Shown here: piece by piece, positions 2,626 to 20,329 of the stretch | Layout: each line of letters opens with the position of its first letter | Position numbering within the stretch: position 1 is the stretch's first letter | Virus record (IMG/VR): IMGVR_UViG_3300032087_003396 | Location: 1 to 31,635 of that record | Source of the DNA: a virus | Length of the DNA: 31,635 nt | Direction: 5' to 3' (one strand) | Notes under the pieces: model-generated | The model's database searches: none | Told to the model about the DNA's origin: nothing | Seen by the model: the letters and a program-made list of their open reading frames with translations, nothing else | Made by a program: the position numbers and the translations under genes

Positions 2626-4730
2626 AATCTATTAACCTCTTTAATTATATTTTTTATATCATCAAATGTTTCAACAATATACTTTGGTAACTTCTCTTTT
2701 TCTTTTGGGTCATTATACATTACAAATGTTTCTGCAAAGCATTCAAGAAAATTTGAGTTTGCATACATACCAACATTATATATACTTTCATCTTTATTCA
2801 TTTTTTTGTGATTTCTTCTTATTCGCCATTTCATCTCATCAAGTTTTGGACTAATAGAATTTAACTTATCAAGGTTTCCACTATTTCTTAATTTGTTTAA
2901 CTTACCTTGAATAGTTTTGTTCCAATTAACTTCTTCAAAATATTGAAGGTGTATTGTGTGGGCGTATTCGTGTTGTGTCAATCGTTTCACATCTCTTTCT
3001 AAATCACCACTTCCTTTTATAGTCCATCTTTTATACTTAAATGCTTTTGAATTTTTTTTAATATAATTGTTATATTGTTTAAGCCTCATTCTTTTTTCAA
3101 CTTGGCTCATAGTCTTATTTTCTTCTACTTCTTTAATATACCTTTTAGCTATCTGTATTTGTTCTCTTCTTTTTATGTTGTTTTCAGCAAATCGTATATT
3201 AGTTTCAGTAATATCATTTGCATTCAATGTAGTTCTATTATATTGTATGCCATCTCTTGTTGCATTTGCATTAGCTTTCATTCTTGTTTTTGTTTGAAAT
3301 CTTGTCATCTTGTAAGATAAAGGAAAGTCATCTTGTAATTCAATTATTGATTTATTCACAATATTCAATCTATCTAATTTTACTTTTTCAAAATCAGTTG
3401 CAACATCACTAAATATTTTTGTTTGAGTAATTGCTTCTTGTAAAGTTTTAGCTTTTTTGTATTGAAACATATCTGTTTTTTGTTCTGGTATTTCAAGATG
3501 CTCTTTGACTACTTCACTCATTGCAACAGGTGGGGTTTGTGGTGGCTTATTAGTAATTGGTGCTGGTGGCTTGTTTGGGTCAGATTGTATTTTCTTATCT
3601 TTTAGTCCCAAGTCCTGCAACAATACTTTTGGGTTTTCTCTTTCATAATCTCTAAACAAATCTGGGTTTGCTTTCATATGTTGTCTTTGTCTTTTCTGCC
3701 ACAACATTGCTTGTCTTTTTTCTTTCTGTGCTTGTAACAAATACTCTTTATTATTAGTATCTTTATAGAGTGCCATATAAGTTAAATTTCTTTGTTTGTA
3801 TTTTCTTATATTTCTCTCGTTGTATCTTTGTGTTTTTGTTGCTTCATAATTTTCAGGTCTATACGATTTTGTTTTATACCCTAAATCATCTTTAATGTTT
3901 TCAACACTCTCTTGTAATACTCTATCTATAGCAACAGGTTTCATCTTGTGTCTGCAATTAGGTCTGGTTGTTAAGTATGGGGGTTTATCTCTAACATCTT
4001 GTATTGACTGCAAATTATTATTCTGTATGTGTTTTCTTATCATTGCCTTTGCATCTGTAGTCAATGGAAACAAAAGGTATTTTTCATCATAATACATTCT
4101 GCCTTGATAGTCAGCGTGGTCATCTGCACAATCACCAAATTCATTTACCACATAGAAAACAATGTTTGCATTTCTACCAGCCTCTAATTGTCTATTACCT
4201 ATCTCTTGTTGTATGCCTGTTCTGACTGCCATTTCCATATAAGCTTTGTAAGTAACCTTACGACCATTTTTATATGTTACAGGTAAGCCTTTATCAATGC
4301 CTGTTTTAGTTTGGCTAATAATACTTTTATCTAAATTAGGTATAAACTCTGCTGATGTTTTATATCTTTCTAACCGTGATACTTTTTTTAGTGTTCTGTT
4401 CTGTAATGACTTGGCACTTCTTACTAACATCTTCATTCCCATTGCTGTATCTTTTTTTAGTTGTTTGGTATCTGTTCCTGTATATGAACCAATATTGTCA
4501 ATCACATTGTTTATTATTTTTTGAGATTTGTTTGCCACTTGTTGTAACTTATTATTTAATTGTCTTTTTGAAGCTACTTGTGTTTTGATGTAGTCTTTGG
4601 CATTGGCTGATTTTGCACCTTTGTTAAGATGAAGTGCTGTTTCTAATACCATTGCATTTTCAGTTGCATCAATGACTTCTCTCATTACTAAAGATACATC
4701 ATCAGTAACATTATGTATATCTCTTGCCAA
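2622..4730 (-). CDS. MuF / phage_min_cap2-type minor head protein with C-terminal HExxH metallopeptidase-like domain
   Basis: 702 residues from a TTG at 4730; an in-frame TGA just upstream rules out a longer form, and TAGGTG stands six bases before the TTG. Residues about 150-270 match the phage minor capsid 2 / MuF core: a conserved helix with AVRTGIQQEIGNRQLEAGR, then GDCADDHADYQGRMY (199-213) and RPNCRHKMKP (256-265). Such proteins sit inside the capsid by the portal. A basic helix-rich linker and a proline-rich stretch (about 385-402) lead to a C-terminal region of about 290 residues carrying HEYAH (587-591) and, some 70 residues on, ECFAET (E663, E667), the arrangement of a zinc metallopeptidase. 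Temperate-phage MuF proteins fused to toxin domains are known; this could be an injected effector or an internal head protease. The peptidase call is by motif only. Confidence 0.8.
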   Translation of the reverse strand: MARDIHNVTDDVSLVMREVIDATENAMVLETALHLNKGAKSANAKDYIKTQVASKRQLNNKLQQVANKSQKIINNVIDNIGSYTGTDTKQLKKDTAMGMKMLVRSAKSLQNRTLKKVSRLERYKTSAEFIPNLDKSIISQTKTGIDKGLPVTYKNGRKVTYKAYMEMAVRTGIQQEIGNRQLEAGRNANIVFYVVNEFGDCADDHADYQGRMYYDEKYLLFPLTTDAKAMIRKHIQNNNLQSIQDVRDKPPYLTTRPNCRHKMKPVAIDRVLQESVENIKDDLGYKTKSYRPENYEATKTQRYNERNIRKYKQRNLTYMALYKDTNNKEYLLQAQKEKRQAMLWQKRQRQHMKANPDLFRDYERENPKVLLQDLGLKDKKIQSDPNKPPAPITNKPPQTPPVAMSEVVKEHLEIPEQKTDMFQYKKAKTLQEAITQTKIFSDVATDFEKVKLDRLNIVNKSIIELQDDFPLSYKMTRFQTKTRMKANANATRDGIQYNRTTLNANDITETNIRFAENNIKRREQIQIAKRYIKEVEENKTMSQVEKRMRLKQYNNYIKKNSKAFKYKRWTIKGSGDLERDVKRLTQHEYAHTIHLQYFEEVNWNKTIQGKLNKLRNSGNLDKLNSISPKLDEMKWRIRRNHKKMNKDESIYNVGMYANSNFLECFAETFVMYNDPKEKEKLPKYIVETFDDIKNIIKEVNRL

Positions 4731-7049: not shown

Positions 7050-8309
7050 CTACTCCATTTCTACCAAGTTCTCTAAATATTCTTCTATGCTATATTCAAA
7101 AGCATCTAATATATCTATATCACTTGTCCCATCATCTAACCTGATGCCTTCCTTCTTCTCACTCCATACTGCCTGACTTAAACCTTTTTGTAGTGGCACA
7201 GTTGTATGTCTTAACATCTTTATTCTGTCTGTTCCTAATAAGCGTTGCACTAATTCTATTCTATCTTTGATGGGTTTCTTTAGTGCCTTCTTGATGTTTG
7301 TTTTTAACCTGTCCTTGATTGCCACATTCTTAAGTCCTCGTATCAATACAGGTTCTGCATTATCACATCTTGTTGTAAATAGTTTATCATACTTTTCATA
7401 TACTATCTTGGCAAAGGTGCTAAATCTTTTATCTAATGTTTCTGGGCTTAATTCTTCCTCTATTCTTTCTGCTTCTAATACGACTATGTTTTTGAGGTGT
7501 GGGGTAAAGCCTGTTGCTACAAATGTTGTCCCACTCTTATTGCCACCAAAGTCAACACCAACATTGATGAGTATGAGGTTGTCTGGTTCTTTGTCTATAA
7601 GGTATCGTTCCATATTGTCTGCAAACTTGGTGTATATAATACCCTCTGCTCTAACCCATTGCCCCAATATATATCTCTGGTAAAATACACCATCATACAT
7701 ATTCTCATATCGTTGAACAATCTCATCTGTTAGGCTGGGGTTGTCTTTCATTGTAAAGTGTATATACTTCACATTCTTTTGTTCAGACTTGTTGACCCAC
7801 TCTTTCTTGAACCAATGATTAGGACTTTCTGGGTTACAGCTAAACCAATACTTACTTCTTGGGACACTACATCTTGCTAATACCTGATTGACAAAACTTT
7901 CTGGCATCAGGACTACTTCATCTAAAAATGCCCCTGCACTTGTAATACCTTGAACCGTTTGATATGATGCCTCATCTTTACCACCAAACACATAAAAGTA
8001 TTGGGTGTTCCTACCTCTTGTAACTTTGAGTGTATGTGTTGATGTGTAGTAGGCTATATCAAATTGTTTATGCAGATACTTTATATTCATCAAAGGCTTA
8101 ATGATATTTCTCTCTGCACTTGTTACACTTTTTGAAGCTATGATAAAGTTCTTGTTCTTAAACTCACTCATTGCCCAAAGTATAAATGCGATACTCATTG
8201 ATGATGTTTTTCCTGACCTGATTGTTCCATCTGCTATGACACCATCATAATTACTAAACCCAAACTTAAATAGTTCTAATTGTTTTGGGCTAAAACCAAT
8301 CTCATTCAT
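7050..8309 (-). CDS. terL: Terminase large subunit
   Basis: 419 residues from the ATG at 8309, which has AAGGA just upstream; a TTG at 8327 is a weaker alternative. This is the ATP-driven packaging motor and headful or site-specific nuclease of the terminase_3/PBSX-like type. Visible are the Walker A motif GTIRSGKT (28-35), Walker B AFLDE (127-131), the coupling motif WFSCNPESPNHWF (about 155-167) and the RNase H-like nuclease beginning INVGVDFGGNKSGT (about 245), with a late acidic block DDGTSDIDILDAFEY. The start overlaps the TerS stop by eight bases. All expected motor residues are present. Confidence 0.95.
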   Translation of the reverse strand: MNEIGFSPKQLELFKFGFSNYDGVIADGTIRSGKTSSMSIAFILWAMSEFKNKNFIIASKSVTSAERNIIKPLMNIKYLHKQFDIAYYTSTHTLKVTRGRNTQYFYVFGGKDEASYQTVQGITSAGAFLDEVVLMPESFVNQVLARCSVPRSKYWFSCNPESPNHWFKKEWVNKSEQKNVKYIHFTMKDNPSLTDEIVQRYENMYDGVFYQRYILGQWVRAEGIIYTKFADNMERYLIDKEPDNLILINVGVDFGGNKSGTTFVATGFTPHLKNIVVLEAERIEEELSPETLDKRFSTFAKIVYEKYDKLFTTRCDNAEPVLIRGLKNVAIKDRLKTNIKKALKKPIKDRIELVQRLLGTDRIKMLRHTTVPLQKGLSQAVWSEKKEGIRLDDGTSDIDILDAFEYSIEEYLENLVEME

Positions 8310-8673
8310 CTTGTTCCTTTTTATCAAAACTTGCCTTTATAGATGCTGTCAATGGGTCATCTTCACTATCATCTAAATTGTTGTATGTAATAATATCTTT
8401 TTGACCCAGATGCTGTTTACCTAACCAGATTGCCATAGCTGTATTTTTTTGAGATAGTTGAAACTGATTTCTTCTTAATGATAACAGACCACCTACTCTA
8501 AATTCTTCAAAGGCTTCTTCGTATGTCATTCCCATCTCTCTTTTACACCAGCTTCTTACTGCATCTTCTGAACAATGGAAAAACCCTGCTACTTCTCGCA
8601 GAGTGCTTTGTAGTTCACATAACTTAACAAATTGGTCTTTATCTATTTCTGTTTTTGGTCGTCCTGCTTTCAT
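8302..8673 (-). CDS. terS: Terminase small subunit
   Basis: 123 residues from the ATG at 8673, preceded by GTGGAG (eight-base spacing); a GTG three bases upstream is possible. The N-terminal AGRPKTEIDKDQFVKLC and the helix-turn-helix region STLREVAGFFHCSEDAVRSW (about residues 27-46) are typical of small terminases that recognise the packaging site. An oligomerisation helix and an acidic C-terminus follow. It overlaps TerL, its partner. It is the first gene after the non-coding region at 8677-8999 and so is probably the first late gene. Confidence 0.85.
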   Translation of the reverse strand: MKAGRPKTEIDKDQFVKLCELQSTLREVAGFFHCSEDAVRSWCKREMGMTYEEAFEEFRVGGLLSLRRNQFQLSQKNTAMAIWLGKQHLGQKDIITYNNLDDSEDDPLTASIKASFDKKEQDE

Positions 8674-8779
8674 CACATCAACTCCACTTGTTTTCTTTTT
8701 ATAATAGGCTGGTCGTTAAACTTTAATTTTTTTGTAATGCTTTCGGTTACAATTAGAAAGATGGTATTTGCTCTCTTGA

Positions 8780-8797
8780 CCTTTACACAAATAAAGG
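8780..8797 (-). other. Hairpin in the late leader
   Basis: CCTTTA and TAAAGG pair perfectly around a 6-base loop. It lies between the arms of the longer inverted repeats 8745-8753/8820-8828, so it would be an internal stem of that candidate RNA structure. Confidence 0.45.
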
Positions 8798-8842
8798 AAA
8801 TAAGCCTATTTTATTAAATATTGTAACCAAAAACACTACCTT

Positions 8843-8871
8843 ATAACACAATAATAAATCAATTTATTCAA
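8843..8871 (-). promoter_or_regulatory. Possible promoter for the late operon
   Basis: Minus strand TTGAAT (8866-8871), 17 bases, then TGTTAT (8843-8848), about 165 bases before TerS. The -35 matches that of the 19271 promoter; the -10 is weak. It is the best sigma70-like match in the non-coding region upstream of the packaging genes, but the AT-rich background makes chance matches easy. Confidence 0.35.
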
Positions 8872-8999
8872 AAAAGCAAGGTTTTTTTATAAAAAATGTA
8901 GGGTATGTATAGTTGAGATAGTTTTTCCATAAAGTCCCATATGAGAAAAAAATATATAATAGTTTACTGAAAAATGCTTCAAACCCTACACACTATACA

Positions 9000-9179
9000 T
9001 TATTTTACAACCACCTCTGGTTTTACCAAACCTTTACTTAATTTGATAATCATATCTCTGCTACGCTTTGCTTTGCGCCTACCAAAGACAACAAGTGCCT
9101 CTTCTGGTGCATTTGTTAGCGTAAGTTTTGGTGAGATGTATTGGTTTCCCACCTTCAACAGACACGCTACGACCTTCAA
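9000..9179 (-). CDS. Small basic protein, 59 residues, unknown
   Basis: A TTG at 9179-9177 overlaps the TGA of the upstream gene (9178-9176), and the frame runs 59 codons to a TAA. The peptide reads like real protein: a strand-rich first half (KVGNQYISPKLTLTNAPEEA), VVFGRRKAKRSRD as a basic patch, and MIIKLSKGLVKPEVVVK. Without it about 180 more bases would be empty. The start overlap suggests coupled translation, but I see no good Shine-Dalgarno for the TTG, and a GTG 30 bases further in is possible. No family recognised. Confidence 0.55.
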   Translation of the reverse strand: MKVVACLLKVGNQYISPKLTLTNAPEEALVVFGRRKAKRSRDMIIKLSKGLVKPEVVVK

Positions 9180-10021: not shown

Positions 10022-10050
10022 ATTATAGTGGTTTGGTGGAAAAAGTGGCA
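10022..10050 (-). promoter_or_regulatory. Phage promoter with TAGTGCCACTTT box
   Basis: On the minus strand TATAAT (10022-10027) stands 17 bases after TGCCAC (10045-10050), the latter inside TAGTGCCACTTT (10042-10053). The same box, spacing, -10 and downstream GTGAAAAAA recur at 18367-18398. The box overlaps the stop codon of the helicase gene. It would drive the four small genes and possibly the late block. Confidence 0.7.
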
Positions 10051-11397
10051 CTATTTTAAGATACTTTTTCTTTTTTTATACATTCCCAAACAGTAATTGA
10101 TATTGACATCTACATAATCATAGATGACAGGGGTGTCTTTTCCATCAACACTTCTCTCAATACGACCTGCACTTTGTTTGATGACTGCTCTGTTTTTATT
10201 TGGTGTTGCTAAATGTAGCCTATCAAGTATGGGTATATCTAAACCTTCTTTGGCAAGTGTATAGGTGGCAATTAAAACTTTATGTTTTCCTTCTCGCATC
10301 TGATGTAAAATATGTTCTCTCACATCTTTTGGTATTTTACCATTTATCATCAAAGCATCTACGCCTATACTATGTAACATATGGTGTAGCGTTCTGATAT
10401 GTTCTACTCTATGGGTTAGCACCAAATGATGATGGTCTGGTTCTCTATAAATTCTATTCACAATCTCAACATTTCTATCTTGATTATTTGTAATATAATC
10501 TATAAGTTTGATGTAGTTAAATGTCCCATCTGTTTCTAAATATTTCTCGCTATCATCTAAATCAGTTGCTATCATTTGATGTCTGGCTTTCATAATTTTA
10601 TCACCAACTTCTTCTGGGGCAATACTATATGCCATATTGCCAAGTAGTGAAAAAGTGCTTTTGAGTAAACCATCTACTCTGTCAAGTGTTGCTGACAAAC
10701 CAAATTTGTGTCTGGCTTTTAGATTTGATAAGACCCTGTAAAATTGCATCACTTTTGTTGGTGTTCCTGCTACTCTATGACACTCATCTACAATAATCAC
10801 ATTCCATTCTTTTGCATACTCTGACAAATCTAATTTAGTCATTGTCTGAACGGTAGCAAATGTTATGTCTTGACCTATATCTACTTTGCCATTAGTAATT
10901 GTTCCAAAATCACCATCAAAATAATGCTCTGCTCTCTTCTTACTTTGTATCAATAGGTCTTTTGTATGAGTAAGCCATAAGGCTTTTTGACCTAATGCTT
11001 GAATAAGTGCAATACCTATTTGTGTTTTACCAGAACCACACGGTGCTTCCAAGACACCACCCTTTGCATTTTTTAGCGTTTTAAGGGCTTTTTCTTGGTA
11101 GCCATATAAACTAACATTACCTTGCATTTCTAATGCTTTAAACGGTGCAAAATCAAGCTCATATGGTGTATCTTTGATAATGTCCCATACATTATTTAGC
11201 TCACCAAATGGTAAATAGATTTTATTTCCTAATCGTTCATATAGGTAAAGTTTTTTATCAATATTACCTGTCCATCTACCCATCTTTTTTGCTACATAAT
11301 AATCAGGGTTATCAAGCACTAAATTATTCTCACAATAATTAAGTAGTGCCATATTATAATTTTCTACAATAATCTTGTTACTGATAACGCTATTCAT
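10051..11397 (-). CDS. DEAD/H-box superfamily II DNA helicase
   Basis: 448 residues from the ATG at 11397; no clear Shine-Dalgarno stands before it, and a TTG or ATG up to 57 bases upstream is possible, but the N-terminus from here (NSVISNKIIVEN) looks like the family start. Motifs are all present: GYQ Q-motif-like LYGYQEKAL, Walker A APCGSGKT (118-125), DECH (204-207), SAT (235-237), and motif VI QSAGRIER near the end, with THR and ATYTLAKEGLDIP between. This is the XPB/SSL2- or UvsW-like type found in many phages, acting in replication fork or recombination intermediate remodelling. Its stop overlaps the next promoter box. Confidence 0.92.
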   Translation of the reverse strand: MNSVISNKIIVENYNMALLNYCENNLVLDNPDYYVAKKMGRWTGNIDKKLYLYERLGNKIYLPFGELNNVWDIIKDTPYELDFAPFKALEMQGNVSLYGYQEKALKTLKNAKGGVLEAPCGSGKTQIGIALIQALGQKALWLTHTKDLLIQSKKRAEHYFDGDFGTITNGKVDIGQDITFATVQTMTKLDLSEYAKEWNVIIVDECHRVAGTPTKVMQFYRVLSNLKARHKFGLSATLDRVDGLLKSTFSLLGNMAYSIAPEEVGDKIMKARHQMIATDLDDSEKYLETDGTFNYIKLIDYITNNQDRNVEIVNRIYREPDHHHLVLTHRVEHIRTLHHMLHSIGVDALMINGKIPKDVREHILHQMREGKHKVLIATYTLAKEGLDIPILDRLHLATPNKNRAVIKQSAGRIERSVDGKDTPVIYDYVDVNINYCLGMYKKRKSILK

Positions 11398-12580: not shown

Positions 12581-12596
12581 ATTACAATACCCTCTC

Positions 12597-12659
12597 TGGA
12601 CTTGCTCATCAGTTGGGGTAGTCCATTTCCCCAAGACCCACAATTAAGTGGGTTTCGCA
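12597..12659 (-). ncRNA. Type II hammerhead ribozyme with loop I pseudoknot
   Basis: Read on the minus strand, every core element is present. Stem II is open at the ends: UGC (12659-12657) with GCA (12605-12603). GAAA is 12656-12653. Stem III is ACCCAC/GUGGGU (12653-12648 with 12641-12636), loop UUAAUU. The cleavage site is GUC, cutting after C12635. Stem I is UUGGGG/CCCCAA (12634-12629 with 12618-12613), loop of 10. CUGAUGA is 12612-12606. UGGACU in loop I (12625-12620) is complementary to AGUCCA right after stem II (12602-12597), a 6-bp pseudoknot that would be the stabilising tertiary contact. G10.1-C11.1 is also present. Self-cleavage is predicted, not shown. Confidence 0.93.
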
Positions 12660-12661
12660 TT

Positions 12662-12946
12662 TTATAAATTAGTTGCCCATTTATCTTCTTCAAGTTGTAA
12701 AGCATATAATGGTCTGTATGCTTTTTCATATGCTTCTAATAATGCTATTCTTTCTTCATCATTTGGGAAGAAATCTTTTTGATAATATCTTCCTACTAAT
12801 ACTCTGTTTTGTGGTTCAGCAGTTAACATACCATTTGGTGTTACTTCATATCTATTTGTATCTTTGTAATACCATACATCACAATCATCATAGTTCAACA
12901 ATGTTGTTACTACTTTACTTCTTACACTTTCATTTAATCTTTTCAT
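12662..12946 (-). CDS. Small protein, 94 residues, unknown, upstream of the ribozyme
   Basis: The frame opens at 12991, but that ATG touches the -10 element of the promoter at 12992-13020 and would be at or before the transcription start. The next ATG at 12946 has AAGGAG eight bases before it and fits a leader of about 40 bases, so I use it. The protein has an aromatic, strand-rich centre (DDCDVWYYKDTNRYEVTPNG) and an acidic helical end (DEERIALLEAYEKAYRPLYALQLEEDKWATNL). No family recognised. The TAA (12664-12662) lies two bases before stem II of the hammerhead, so a terminating ribosome would cover part of the ribozyme. Confidence 0.78.
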   Translation of the reverse strand: MKRLNESVRSKVVTTLLNYDDCDVWYYKDTNRYEVTPNGMLTAEPQNRVLVGRYYQKDFFPNDEERIALLEAYEKAYRPLYALQLEEDKWATNL

Positions 12947-12991: not shown

Positions 12992-13020
12992 ATAATATCA
13001 TAACTTAAAGAGAATGTCAA
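12992..13020 (-). promoter_or_regulatory. Strong sigma70-type promoter
   Basis: On the minus strand TTGACA (13015-13020), 17 bases, TATTAT (12992-12997), with TATGA directly before the -10 (extended -10, TGn). The bases TTTAAGTTATG in the spacer recur in the 19271-19299 promoter. It would drive the 94-residue gene, the ribozyme, five small genes and the helicase. Confidence 0.85.
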
Positions 13021-17759: not shown

Positions 17760-18038
17760 TTATGACAATGCACTTGTCAATTTCACATAAAACTTTATTG
17801 CTGTTTTTTCCTCACCATCTAATTCTAACATTTTAAAACTTGGTAAAACTGTTAGGTCGTGTGAGTTTGGTGCTAAATATCTTCGTGTAGTTATAATAGC
17901 TTTAACTGCTTGATTTACACTTTGGCTTCCGATTGCTTGTATATAAACAAATTTATCTTCATATAATGAAAGGGCAATAGAACCAGCCAACTTGTTCACA
18001 TCAGAGTTATGAGCTACTTTGATAATCTTTTGCATCAT
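17760..18038 (-). CDS. SpoVS-like (Alba-fold) nucleic-acid-binding protein
   Basis: 92 residues, ATG at 18038 six bases after AAGGAG. It matches stage V sporulation protein S along most of its length: IKVAHNSDVNKLAGSIA, then VYIQAIGSQSVNQAVKAII, RYLAPNSHDLTVLPSF and LDGEEKTAIKFYV. SpoVS in Bacillus affects sporulation and septation, and the family has the Alba nucleic-acid-binding fold. In the phage it could act on chromosome structure, RNA, or cell development. It overlaps the repressor gene by 32 bases and is probably expressed with it. Gene not truncated. Confidence 0.85.
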   Translation of the reverse strand: MMQKIIKVAHNSDVNKLAGSIALSLYEDKFVYIQAIGSQSVNQAVKAIITTRRYLAPNSHDLTVLPSFKMLELDGEEKTAIKFYVKLTSALS

Positions 18039-18249
18039 ACACTACTCCTTCTTTCAATATTCTTCGCAGAACAAAATAGTCCACGCCTAAAACTTGTGCA
18101 ATTCTTCGCAAGGTTGTTACGCTTGGCTTTGACTTGTCATTCTCTATTGTGTTTATTGTTTGCACCGACACATCACACTTCTCTGCTAATTCTTTTTGCA
18201 AGATACCAATGTCAAGTCTTTTCTCTCTAATATAATTTCCAACTGTCAT
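18007..18249 (-). CDS. XRE-family transcriptional regulator
   Basis: 80 residues, ATG at 18249 behind AAAGGTGGTGA. A helix-turn-helix of the Cro/CI type is clear: LQKELAEKCDVSVQTINTIE (about 17-36) then KSKPSVTTLRRIAQVLGVDY. Only a short tail follows, so it is Cro-sized and lacks a cleavage or dimerisation domain. It lies behind two candidate promoters (18367-18398 and 18306-18334) and probably controls them. No integrase is encoded, so a lysogeny role is not indicated; timing control of early genes is more likely. Confidence 0.88.
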   Translation of the reverse strand: MTVGNYIREKRLDIGILQKELAEKCDVSVQTINTIENDKSKPSVTTLRRIAQVLGVDYFVLRRILKEGVVYDAKDYQSSS

Positions 18250-18305
18250 TTAATCACCACCTTTCTGTTAGAAATTTGTGTGAGGTTTTATTCCCCCTCA
18301 CTTAT

Positions 18306-18334: not shown

Positions 18335-18366
18335 GTGCAATAAAAACTTTTTTCACTTTCATATAT

Positions 18367-18395
18367 ATTATAGTTAAAATATAAATAAAGTGGCA
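18367..18395 (-). promoter_or_regulatory. Phage promoter with TAGTGCCACTTT box, second copy
   Basis: TATAAT (18367-18372), 17 bases, TGCCAC (18390-18395) inside TAGTGCCACTTT (18387-18398), minus strand. Same box, same spacing and shared ACTATAATATA and GTGAAAAAA as at 10022-10053. It precedes the XRE, SpoVS and replication genes. Confidence 0.7.
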
Positions 18396-18403
18396 CTACT
18401 TTT

Positions 18404-18427
18404 TTTAATTGTTTCAATGTTACCCTT
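18404..18427. repeat. 24-bp inverted repeat, arm 1
   Basis: Reads AAGGGTAACATT-G-AAACAATTAAA on the minus strand. The plus strand at 19217-19240 carries the same 24 bases with one difference (C for G). The two arms enclose the two unknown genes at 18444-19200. In one transcript they could pair over 24 bases with a single mismatch. Confidence 0.85.
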
Positions 18428-18443
18428 CGTTACTCCTTTCTAT

Positions 18444-18818
18444 TTATTCAATACTATTATTTTCTGGCAATAATTGACCATAGATGTCTGGGTCATTTTC
18501 ATTATGCTCAACAACCATTTCAATTCTACCAACATCATCTCTTATTTCAATGTCTAAAATATTTCTGTCATAAAGCCTATCGCAAATGCTATCATAATAT
18601 TCACACTTTTTACGAGTAAGCAAACCTGAATATTGTCTGTGATATTTTCCATCTTTGCCTTTATATTCAGCTACAGGTAAATCATCAAACCAAGTGATGT
18701 AGCCTTCTTTATCTGAATTGAAATCATCACCTGAAACAATTTTGACATCATATAAATCTTTGCATCTTCTGTTGTAGAATTTTTTATTATATGCTCTTAA
18801 GAAAGTTTTGAATTTCAT
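18444..18818 (-). CDS. Early protein of unknown function (124 residues)
   Basis: ATG at 18818, one base after the TAA of the upstream gene. A basic N-terminus (MKFKTFLRAYNKKFYNRRCKDLYDV) is followed by an alpha/beta-looking acidic body (GYITWFDDLPVAEYKGKDGKYH, DRLYDRNILDIEIRDDVGRIEMVVEHNEND). No family recognised. It is the second gene of the first early transcript and the last before arm 1 of the inverted repeat. Early timing and lack of homology I can name fit a host-takeover role, which remains inference. Confidence 0.75.
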   Translation of the reverse strand: MKFKTFLRAYNKKFYNRRCKDLYDVKIVSGDDFNSDKEGYITWFDDLPVAEYKGKDGKYHRQYSGLLTRKKCEYYDSICDRLYDRNILDIEIRDDVGRIEMVVEHNENDPDIYGQLLPENNSIE

Positions 18819-18819
18819 A

Positions 18820-19200
18820 TTAACCCCAATGTTCAGGTGCTAAATTCCACATTGCATCATTCTCTTCTTTTGATATAATATAAGCATTTAATATGCTTTC
18901 ATCATCAAATGAGTGTTCCCATCTTGCAACTTCACCATCTTCTAAACACTTTGCTAATAAACCATTACCCAACGCCCCATAAGTAAAATATTTTTGATGC
19001 TTTGACCAAGTCAAGAACCATTTGTAATTTTCATTTGATTTGTAAGGTTCTTTAAACCTTGTTATATCATACTCAAGAAGTGCAAACATTTTTTTATCTT
19101 CTTCATTTGCTTTCAAGAATGTTTTAATAATTTCACTAAATTTTATTTTGTTTTTCTTTGCTACTATACTTTTTATTAGATTTTTTAATTCTTGTTTCAT
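18820..19200 (-). CDS. Early protein of unknown function (126 residues)
   Basis: ATG at 19200, first gene downstream of the 19271-19299 promoter, with a leader of about 65 bases that contains arm 2 of the inverted repeat. Basic helical N-terminus (KQELKNLIKSIVAKKNKIKF), then acidic body rich in aromatic residues (NYKWFLTWSKHQKYFTYG, WEHSFDDESILNAY). Resembles phage proteins annotated only as hypothetical; no motif I can name. No obvious Shine-Dalgarno is seen before the ATG, so translation may depend on leader structure. Confidence 0.75.
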   Translation of the reverse strand: MKQELKNLIKSIVAKKNKIKFSEIIKTFLKANEEDKKMFALLEYDITRFKEPYKSNENYKWFLTWSKHQKYFTYGALGNGLLAKCLEDGEVARWEHSFDDESILNAYIISKEENDAMWNLAPEHWG

Positions 19201-19216
19201 ACACTTTTATTTCACA

Positions 19217-19240
19217 AAGGGTAACATTCAAACAATTAAA
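19217..19240. repeat. 24-bp inverted repeat, arm 2
   Basis: Plus strand AAGGGTAACATT-C-AAACAATTAAA. Inverted copy of 18404-18427 with one mismatch. It lies in the leader of the first early transcript, between the promoter (19271-19299) and the first gene. Confidence 0.85.
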
Positions 19241-19270
19241 TTGCCAAAGACCAAATCTTACTTCATTTAT

Positions 19271-19299
19271 ATTGTAACATAACTTAAAATAAAATTCAA
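19271..19299 (-). promoter_or_regulatory. Sigma70-type early promoter
   Basis: On the minus strand TTGAAT (19294-19299), 17 bases, TACAAT (19271-19276), with TATGT before the -10 (extended -10). TTTAAGTTATG in the spacer matches the 12992-13020 promoter at the same place. It follows the late-operon terminator, so it starts the early block. Confidence 0.8.
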
Positions 19300-19341: not shown

Positions 19342-19368
19342 AAAAAAAAAGAAGCAATTACGCCTCTT
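19342..19368 (-). terminator. Rho-independent terminator of the late operon
   Basis: On the minus strand AAGAGGC (19368-19362) pairs with GCTTCTT (19355-19349), one G-U, loop of six, followed by nine T. The stem overlaps the TAA of the last late gene (19358-19360). It separates the late operon from the early promoter about 45 bases downstream. Confidence 0.88.
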
Positions 19369-20329
19369 TTAATTGTAATGGCATCTCGCCACTTTCTATA
19401 ATAGGTGGTGATGATTTTTGTTCTTCTTTCTCAAGCTCTTCTAATATTTTAATTTCTTCTTGAAAGATTTGATGTGAGTTGTCATATAAGTTTTTAAACT
19501 CTATAAGTAAATCTGCTTTGTTGATTTGTCTGTTCTTAAGCTCTGATACTATATAGTCCTCACCTTCCATATAATGTGTTACTCCCATCAACATAATAAC
19601 TGCAACTTGTATTGCACCCCATAATATTGATGAACCCAACACAACCTGAATAGCAAAGTAACTTGTAATAATAGGTAAGATAGATTTTGTAATTGCCATT
19701 GTGATACTTGATTGTCTTGCATCAGTTCTTTCATCTTTACCTAAATATAAAGGGTCATAATGTTTTGATTTGCTCTTACTGTGTTCTGATAATAAATCAC
19801 TCGGTTGTAATTTTGTTATCTTAATTTTCTTAACATCTTCAAGTGCTTTCTTTTGTTCTATTGATAAACTCTTATATATCTCTTTTCGTTCATAATAGCC
19901 TTTTTTATATAAAGTAAACAGTAAACCCATCTCTTCAATAAAAAGCTTTCTAACATCATTTAAAGCCACTTCATTCTTATATCTGGCATAGCGTGGAAGC
20001 AAATACATAATCTCTTTGATGTTTGTCTTTGCTTCTGCTAAATATTTTAAAGCGTTCATAAATGTTTGACTTTCTTTACCAGACTTTTTACCCATCTGTC
20101 TTAATGAGATAGACACATAAAGTGCAAATAGATATGTGAATGACATTGACATTATAATTGTTAATACATCATCAGTTGATGCACTAAACTCTAAACCTTC
20201 TTTAAATATAAATAATATAGATGCAACAATAAGTATTAGCCAAGACATTCTTTTCTTGACCCAATCACCTATGTTTCTTTTGCCTTCTACATATTTATAC
20301 TTTTCTTCTAATAATTTTTTTTCTTCCAT
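19358..20329 (-). CDS. Membrane protein of unknown function, last late gene
   Basis: 323 residues from the ATG at 20329 (a GTG at 20338 is possible). Two membrane helices near the N-terminus (SWLILIVASILFIF and VLTIIMSMSFTYLFALYVSI) and two more around residues 205-250 (SILPIITSYFAIQVVL, LWGAIQVAVIMLMG) flank a basic cytoplasmic region with KLQPSDLLSEHSKSK. The C-terminus is helical and acidic. No family recognised. It closes the late operon, where lysis genes often lie, and is followed by the terminator. It may be a lysis or superinfection-exclusion protein. Confidence 0.75.
   Translation of the reverse strand: MEEKKLLEEKYKYVEGKRNIGDWVKKRMSWLILIVASILFIFKEGLEFSASTDDVLTIIMSMSFTYLFALYVSISLRQMGKKSGKESQTFMNALKYLAEAKTNIKEIMYLLPRYARYKNEVALNDVRKLFIEEMGLLFTLYKKGYYERKEIYKSLSIEQKKALEDVKKIKITKLQPSDLLSEHSKSKSKHYDPLYLGKDERTDARQSSITMAITKSILPIITSYFAIQVVLGSSILWGAIQVAVIMLMGVTHYMEGEDYIVSELKNRQINKADLLIEFKNLYDNSHQIFQEEIKILEELEKEEQKSSPPIIESGEMPLQLKEA

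Follow-up and report, generated by a model that had tools for sequence, protein, structure and literature searches.

Why would two phage genes without recognisable homology be enclosed by a long and almost perfect inverted repeat? The question arises from the virus record IMGVR_UViG_3300032087_003396, which was analysed as a single stretch (the window) of 31,635 bases with 32% G+C and a 91-base terminal direct repeat. The phage genome is circular, and a unit of 31,544 bases was used for the repeat search. A preliminary description of the locus had proposed that the arms of the repeat might pair in a transcript as a panhandle or act in the DNA as a recombination or regulator-binding pair, and that the enclosed genes form a cassette.

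The gene pair and its surroundings

The gene set comprises 44 open reading frames (ORFs) treated as genes, with start codons chosen mechanically. All genes that could be assigned lie on the minus strand, and they encode a terminase, a portal, a coat protein, a primase, a helicase, a Sak4-like annealing protein, a SpoVS-like protein and an XRE regulator. Judged by single proteins, the nearest named relatives are a Faecalibacterium phage for Sak4 (47%) and a Listeria phage for the primase (42%). The gene of the XRE-type regulator (18007–18249, minus strand; Pfam HTH_3, E 2.4e-16) is flanked by that of the SpoVS-like protein (17760–18038, minus strand; Pfam E 7.4e-28), which is located between it and the Sak4 gene and is conserved in the near relative described below. 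Elsewhere in the genome, an extended AT-rich region with no convincing gene (8677–9000, minus strand) precedes the ORF at 8302–8676 and the terminase gene. A type II hammerhead ribozyme was also recognised at 12595–12660 (minus strand; 38.7 bits against an Rfam gathering score of 37), immediately behind the stop codon of the gene at 12662 and ahead of the next gene, which suggests self-cleavage of the phage mRNA between genes.

The enclosed pair consists of P0002 (18820–19200, minus strand, ATG at 19200), encoding 126 amino acids, and P0001 (18444–18818, minus strand), which encodes 124 amino acids and starts one base past the P0002 stop. By codon use both look coding, with phage-like values of 0.17 and 0.22 bits per codon in frame against −0.30 and −0.27 in the next best frame. 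Their neighbours make it plausible that the pair is early. P0002 has no Shine–Dalgarno sequence (anti-SD energy −0.6). This is not unique, since the anti-SD energy falls short of −2.5 in 13 of the 44 ORFs, P0002 among them, a figure that partly reflects the mechanical choice of starts; 26 of the 44 reach −5 or stronger.

Both genes are orphans. Neither has a homologue in viral contigs or annotated phages, and P0002, the one of the two that was also searched against genome contigs and plasmids, has none there; the contig scans used short exact peptide patterns, which distant relatives could escape. For neither protein did Pfam, PHROGs, PADLOC or NCBIfam yield a significant match. Weak matches of P0002 (PHROGs, E 0.03; Cas5a, E 0.033; PDB CIAO1, E 0.066) and of P0001 (PDB, E 0.43) were judged to be chance. 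The absence of recognisable homology noted in the preliminary description is thus borne out by the contig, phage and four profile-library searches. The structures predicted for the two proteins without relatives are of low confidence (mean pLDDT 43 and 42).

Scans of viral contigs with P0006, A1, A2 and A3 identified one near relative, IMGVR_UViG_3300034101_001784 (L003, L004, L008 and L009), and three distant ones (L005–L007), and a scan of genome contigs with A1 gave no relative. The genes flanking the locus are kept in L003 (membrane protein 58%, XRE 58%, SpoVS 59%, Sak4 72%). Between the membrane protein and XRE genes, L003 carries six unrelated ORFs (chosen from the ORF list), one of which (4119–4634, plus strand, 171 amino acids) resembles, by eye, a SprT-type metalloprotease because of its HEVAH motif. 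Neither P0001 nor P0002 finds a match in L004–L008, the near relative's contig included. Together with the six other ORFs, this indicates that the locus is variable. Clear nucleotide similarity to L003 ends at window position 19435 and returns at 18263, so that both borders are outside the arms. The space between them holds weaker AT-rich matches, the best of them pairing 18461–18364 with L003 3388–3483 (E 0.004). The idea of a cassette therefore holds insofar as unrelated ORFs replace the interval in the sole near relative, but the evidence does not place the limits of the exchange at the arms. As judged against L003, the variable piece is not delimited by the repeats as it would be in a transposon or MITE.

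The inverted repeat and the signals around it

Two arms, at 18404–18427 and 19217–19240, had been described as inverted copies that agree at 23 of 24 positions. This is confirmed, and the arms extend to 18404–18430 and 19214–19240 with 25 of 27 positions matching. No other inverted 24-mer pair in the 31,544-base unit has one mismatch or fewer, and none of 200 order-3 Markov genomes contained any such pair. The repeat is real and beyond chance. As the preliminary description had it, the arms lie just outside the two genes, one in the leader of the first gene and the other past the last stop. The 5′ arm (19214–19240, minus strand) forms part of the leader and is separated from the P0002 ATG by 13 bases, and the 3′ arm (18404–18430, minus strand) lies between the stop of P0001 and the promoter of the XRE gene. 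Both arms are wholly untranslated, in a genome where only 1,157 of 31,518 placements of a 27-base segment are free of the gene set. The record holds no further copies at up to three mismatches, and exact copies of the arm pattern number zero in viral contigs. Further, the corresponding interval of L003 has no comparable inverted pair, its longest being 26 bases at 77%.

The signals around the pair are consistent with an operon of its own. The membrane-protein gene upstream ends in a terminator-like hairpin of 10 pairs followed by a T run (19347–19370, minus strand). Past it lies the putative promoter P1 of the gene pair (19271–19299, minus strand; TTGAAT-17-TACAAT, 9 of 12 consensus positions). 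Its spacer contains the word TTTAAGTTATG (window 19278), which has one other exact copy in the genome, near 12999, within the spacer of another promoter. The candidate promoter P2 of the XRE gene (18367–18398, minus strand; TAGTGCCACTTT ... TATAAT) shares its boxes, TAGTGCCACTTT and ACTATAATATA, and their spacing with 10022–10053 (minus strand) and with no other place; the two may represent a phage-specific promoter class. Promoter-like sites are common (14 found in the AT-rich stretch against 9.5 expected, sd 3.2), and the assignments of P1 and P2 consequently rest on these shared words and not on the scan. The search for terminators gave none between P0001 and P2, so P1 transcripts probably continue through the 3′ arm.

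An apparent outer extension of the repeat (18352–18391 with 19260–19299, 70%) was first taken for an inverted copy of P1. Only 9 of 2000 shuffles do as well, but 16 of 3146 genome windows, those overlapping P1 included, equal it against the P1 side. Its 18352–18391 half lies within P2, whose boxes and spacing recur at 10022–10053, and the extension was not counted as part of the repeat.

Two bases before the 3′ arm stands an AAGGAG (18433–18438, minus strand) without a start codon 6–9 bases on. Of the 12 occurrences of this motif on the minus strand, 10 precede an ATG at 6–9 bases and one lies inside the coat gene, leaving this one. Its anti-SD energy of −8.5 is equalled in strength by 72 of 10,509 windows. 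A 33-codon ORF starting with TTG after it overlaps P2 and was set aside. L003, too, has at 3409 an AAGGAG that lacks a start codon; it stands upstream of the early promoter of L003, and no such arm accompanies it. The alignment of the window and L003 blocks around these motifs is equalled by only 5 of 2000 shuffles, but it does not stand out clearly from other places (28 against 27 elsewhere, and 29 in the reverse test), so that the two blocks may or may not be homologous.

Predicted transcript folding and competing explanations

In the sense RNA, 26 of the 27 arm positions can pair, 25 of them as Watson–Crick pairs and one as G-U, leaving a single G.G mismatch. Both DNA differences would be mismatched in the antisense RNA, whereas one is kept as the G-U in the sense RNA. 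The arm duplex is predicted at −33.0 kcal/mol. Five transcripts were modelled, running from 19258 to 18380, 18340, 18250, 18007 or 17760. In these, 25 of the 27 arm positions are paired with probabilities of 0.88–1.0, the outermost position with 0.50–0.63 and the G.G position with 0. Among 41,020 long-range pairs of 60-base tiles in the sense RNA, the tiles with the arms rank first at −44.7 (mean −13.8, sd 4.5); the next strongest pairs, located elsewhere, reach −41.7 and −41.2. The best long-range duplex in L003 3000–5300 has −34.0 and lies between coding tiles. By itself the P1 leader shows no local structure (z +0.48), as against the strong hairpin of the leader near 12995 (z −3.6), and the leader of the early promoter in the near relative is not specially structured either (z −0.83). 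The fold of an 883-base transcript, in which the arms are paired as well, beats its shuffles only moderately (z −2.45; 1 of 20 as good). It should be noted that the folding models ignore ribosomes and kinetics, and that any inverted repeat on one transcript folds in silico, so that folding alone is no proof of function.

Of the three options raised at the outset, the panhandle is the best supported, owing to its near-complete pairing in all five modelled transcripts and to the G-U kept in the sense RNA. We tentatively propose, with a probability of roughly 0.4, that the arms are RNA elements which form a 5′–3′ panhandle on the operon mRNA and act on its decay, processing or initiation. The G-U kept in the sense strand alone, the location of both arms in untranslated regions and the lack of structure in the P1 leader itself argue for this reading. 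The moderate z of the whole fold, the tile pairs elsewhere that come next in strength and the near relative without such a pair argue against it. Transcription from P1, which we infer to be in use, would yield an mRNA with one arm in its 5′ leader and the complement just past the second gene. The arms would then close a helix of 26 pairs (25 Watson–Crick, one G-U, interrupted by the G.G mismatch), and a loop of about 780 bases would hold both genes. A near-perfect helix of 26 pairs is within the range cut by RNase III-type enzymes, here those of the host. The most likely role of the helix would be to cap or trim the operon transcript, setting its lifetime and keeping it distinct from RNA that reads through into the XRE operon. 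As it would end 13 bases before the P0002 ATG, it may also crowd ribosome entry. Simple blocking is not predicted, because the start region is about equally open with or without the 3′ arm (mean accessibility 0.64 → 0.69 before the start and 0.66 → 0.62 after it).

The arms could instead be the functionless relic of a replication template switch that copied some 27 bases, inverted, from one intergenic place to another and that will now drift. We regard this as a genuine possibility, if a somewhat unlikely one. It would account for a single such pair in the genome and for the lack of visible conservation. The 3′ arm directly after the start-less AAGGAG could likewise be read as an older gene start that was overwritten, but the similar AAGGAG upstream of the early promoter in L003 weakens this argument. 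Moreover, the event would have to be recent given the 25 of 27 identity, and both arms fall exactly in untranslated regions. Binding sites for a protein are an unlikely explanation. Here, a regulator would recognise the same sequence past P1 and before P2 and coordinate both promoters, perhaps by looping about 800 bases. The geometry is suggestive: one arm is found some 20–50 bases past the P1 start, just 6 bases separate the other from the upstream box of P2, and the XRE gene follows P2. However, the two promoters point the same way whereas the arms are in opposite orientation, and at 27 bases the site would be a long operator of its kind. Neither arm contains a dyad of at least 12 bases (both score 0, which all of 1000 shuffles equal or exceed), so that the suggested binding of the XRE protein is unsupported by symmetry; the left arm has an 11-base dyad, which the mismatch breaks in the right arm. 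In addition, a search for AATGTTACCCTT with up to two mismatches found five places, of which the two arms alone match without mismatch. Recombination is decidedly improbable, even though inverted arms do flank two genes at a locus that differs between relatives. If the arms were sites for inverting or moving the gene pair, inversion would set it against every other main gene. The similarity borders fall outside the arms, and the arm pattern has no exact match in viral contigs. As the preliminary description had reported, no recombinase came to light: among 39 of the 44 ORFs, Pfam matched no recombinase, integrase or transposase family (E limits 1, 0.01, 0.001 and 0.01), and the suggestion of a recombination pair thus found no support; a host enzyme is still conceivable. 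The XRE protein has a sub-threshold Pfam match to a transposase-type HTH (E 0.11).

Two further proposals concern the start of P0002. As a special case of the panhandle, the helix could set the 3′ AAGGAG beside the SD-less start, so that the first gene would be initiated well only on completed transcripts. The contrast between the two sites (−0.6 at P0002 against −8.5 at the 3′ AAGGAG) fits this, as does the predicted probability of the AAGGAG being unpaired, which is 0.92 when the helix is present and 0.38–0.43 in four controls with a shuffled 3′ arm. There is also precedent in phage T4 genes 38 and 25, where, according to PMC3014915, local helices shorten the spacing between the Shine–Dalgarno sequence and the start from 22 to 5 and from 27 to 11 bases. 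As in those genes, a helix could bring a Shine–Dalgarno sequence near a start codon. Unlike the local helices of T4, the bridge would span about 780 bases and leave a longer spacing, of about 15 bases plus a step across the helix. The missing Shine–Dalgarno sequence is moreover shared with other ORFs, as noted above, and L003 has its orphan AAGGAG without an arm. We consider such bridging very unlikely; if true, translation of a phage operon would depend on completed, circle-closed transcripts. The second proposal is a hok-like refolding in which the 5′ arm is first paired to the P0002 start and then exchanges this partner for the 3′ arm. In partial transcripts the 5′ arm does pair locally at 0.29–0.57, falling to 0 with the 3′ arm, and the probability that the first ATG base is unpaired rises from 0.25 to 0.55. 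For the third base of the ATG, however, it drops (0.94 → 0.79), and mean accessibility hardly moves. The complementarity between 5′ arm and start is at chance level (−4.4 against a shuffle mean of −4.6, matched or bettered by 482 of 1000 shuffles), and 2744 of 3152 30-mers do as well. Having failed this control, the switch was rejected as extremely improbable.

Relation to known mRNA end pairings

If the proposed panhandle forms, a near-perfect helix would hold together the two ends of an operon in a DNA phage. The operon would offer a simple model in which to examine if 5′–3′ closure governs decay or initiation in bacteria, and a reason other than recombination for inverted repeats around genes. 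A literature search of partial coverage, and as such a weak test, found nothing of the kind for panhandle mRNAs in phages. At the locus itself Rfam gave no match at gathering score, and one chance-level match to another family (E 0.63).

A structural parallel is found in pre-rRNA, where inverted repeats around a long transcript form processing stalks whose stem is cut by RNase III. As in these stalks, repeats of similar length enclose a long transcript here and are predicted to form a stem. The loop, on the other hand, would be protein-coding phage mRNA, and cleavage of the stem is hypothetical. Among bacterial mRNAs, we know of few examples with ends tied in this way, namely icaR and hok. The hok mRNA undergoes step-wise refolding with 5′–3′ pairing, and its toxin gene is small (about 50 amino acids). 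Unlike hok, the present locus encodes proteins of 124 and 126 amino acids, well beyond a small toxin, and has no known antisense RNA; the refolding reading failed its control.

PMC3868564, which also names hok of plasmid R1, describes how the 3′ UTR of icaR mRNA in Staphylococcus aureus pairs with its own Shine–Dalgarno region, lowers translation and becomes a substrate of RNase III. In icaR a single gene is involved and the Shine–Dalgarno sequence is paired. The locus described here would instead join a leader without Shine–Dalgarno sequence to the 3′ end by 26 pairs around two phage genes. Hiding of a Shine–Dalgarno sequence does not apply to the P0002 leader, and the accessibility of its start hardly shifts. 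What the two would have in common is an mRNA 3′ end complementary to its own 5′ leader, here at 26 of 27 positions with one G-U and on what would be a single transcript.
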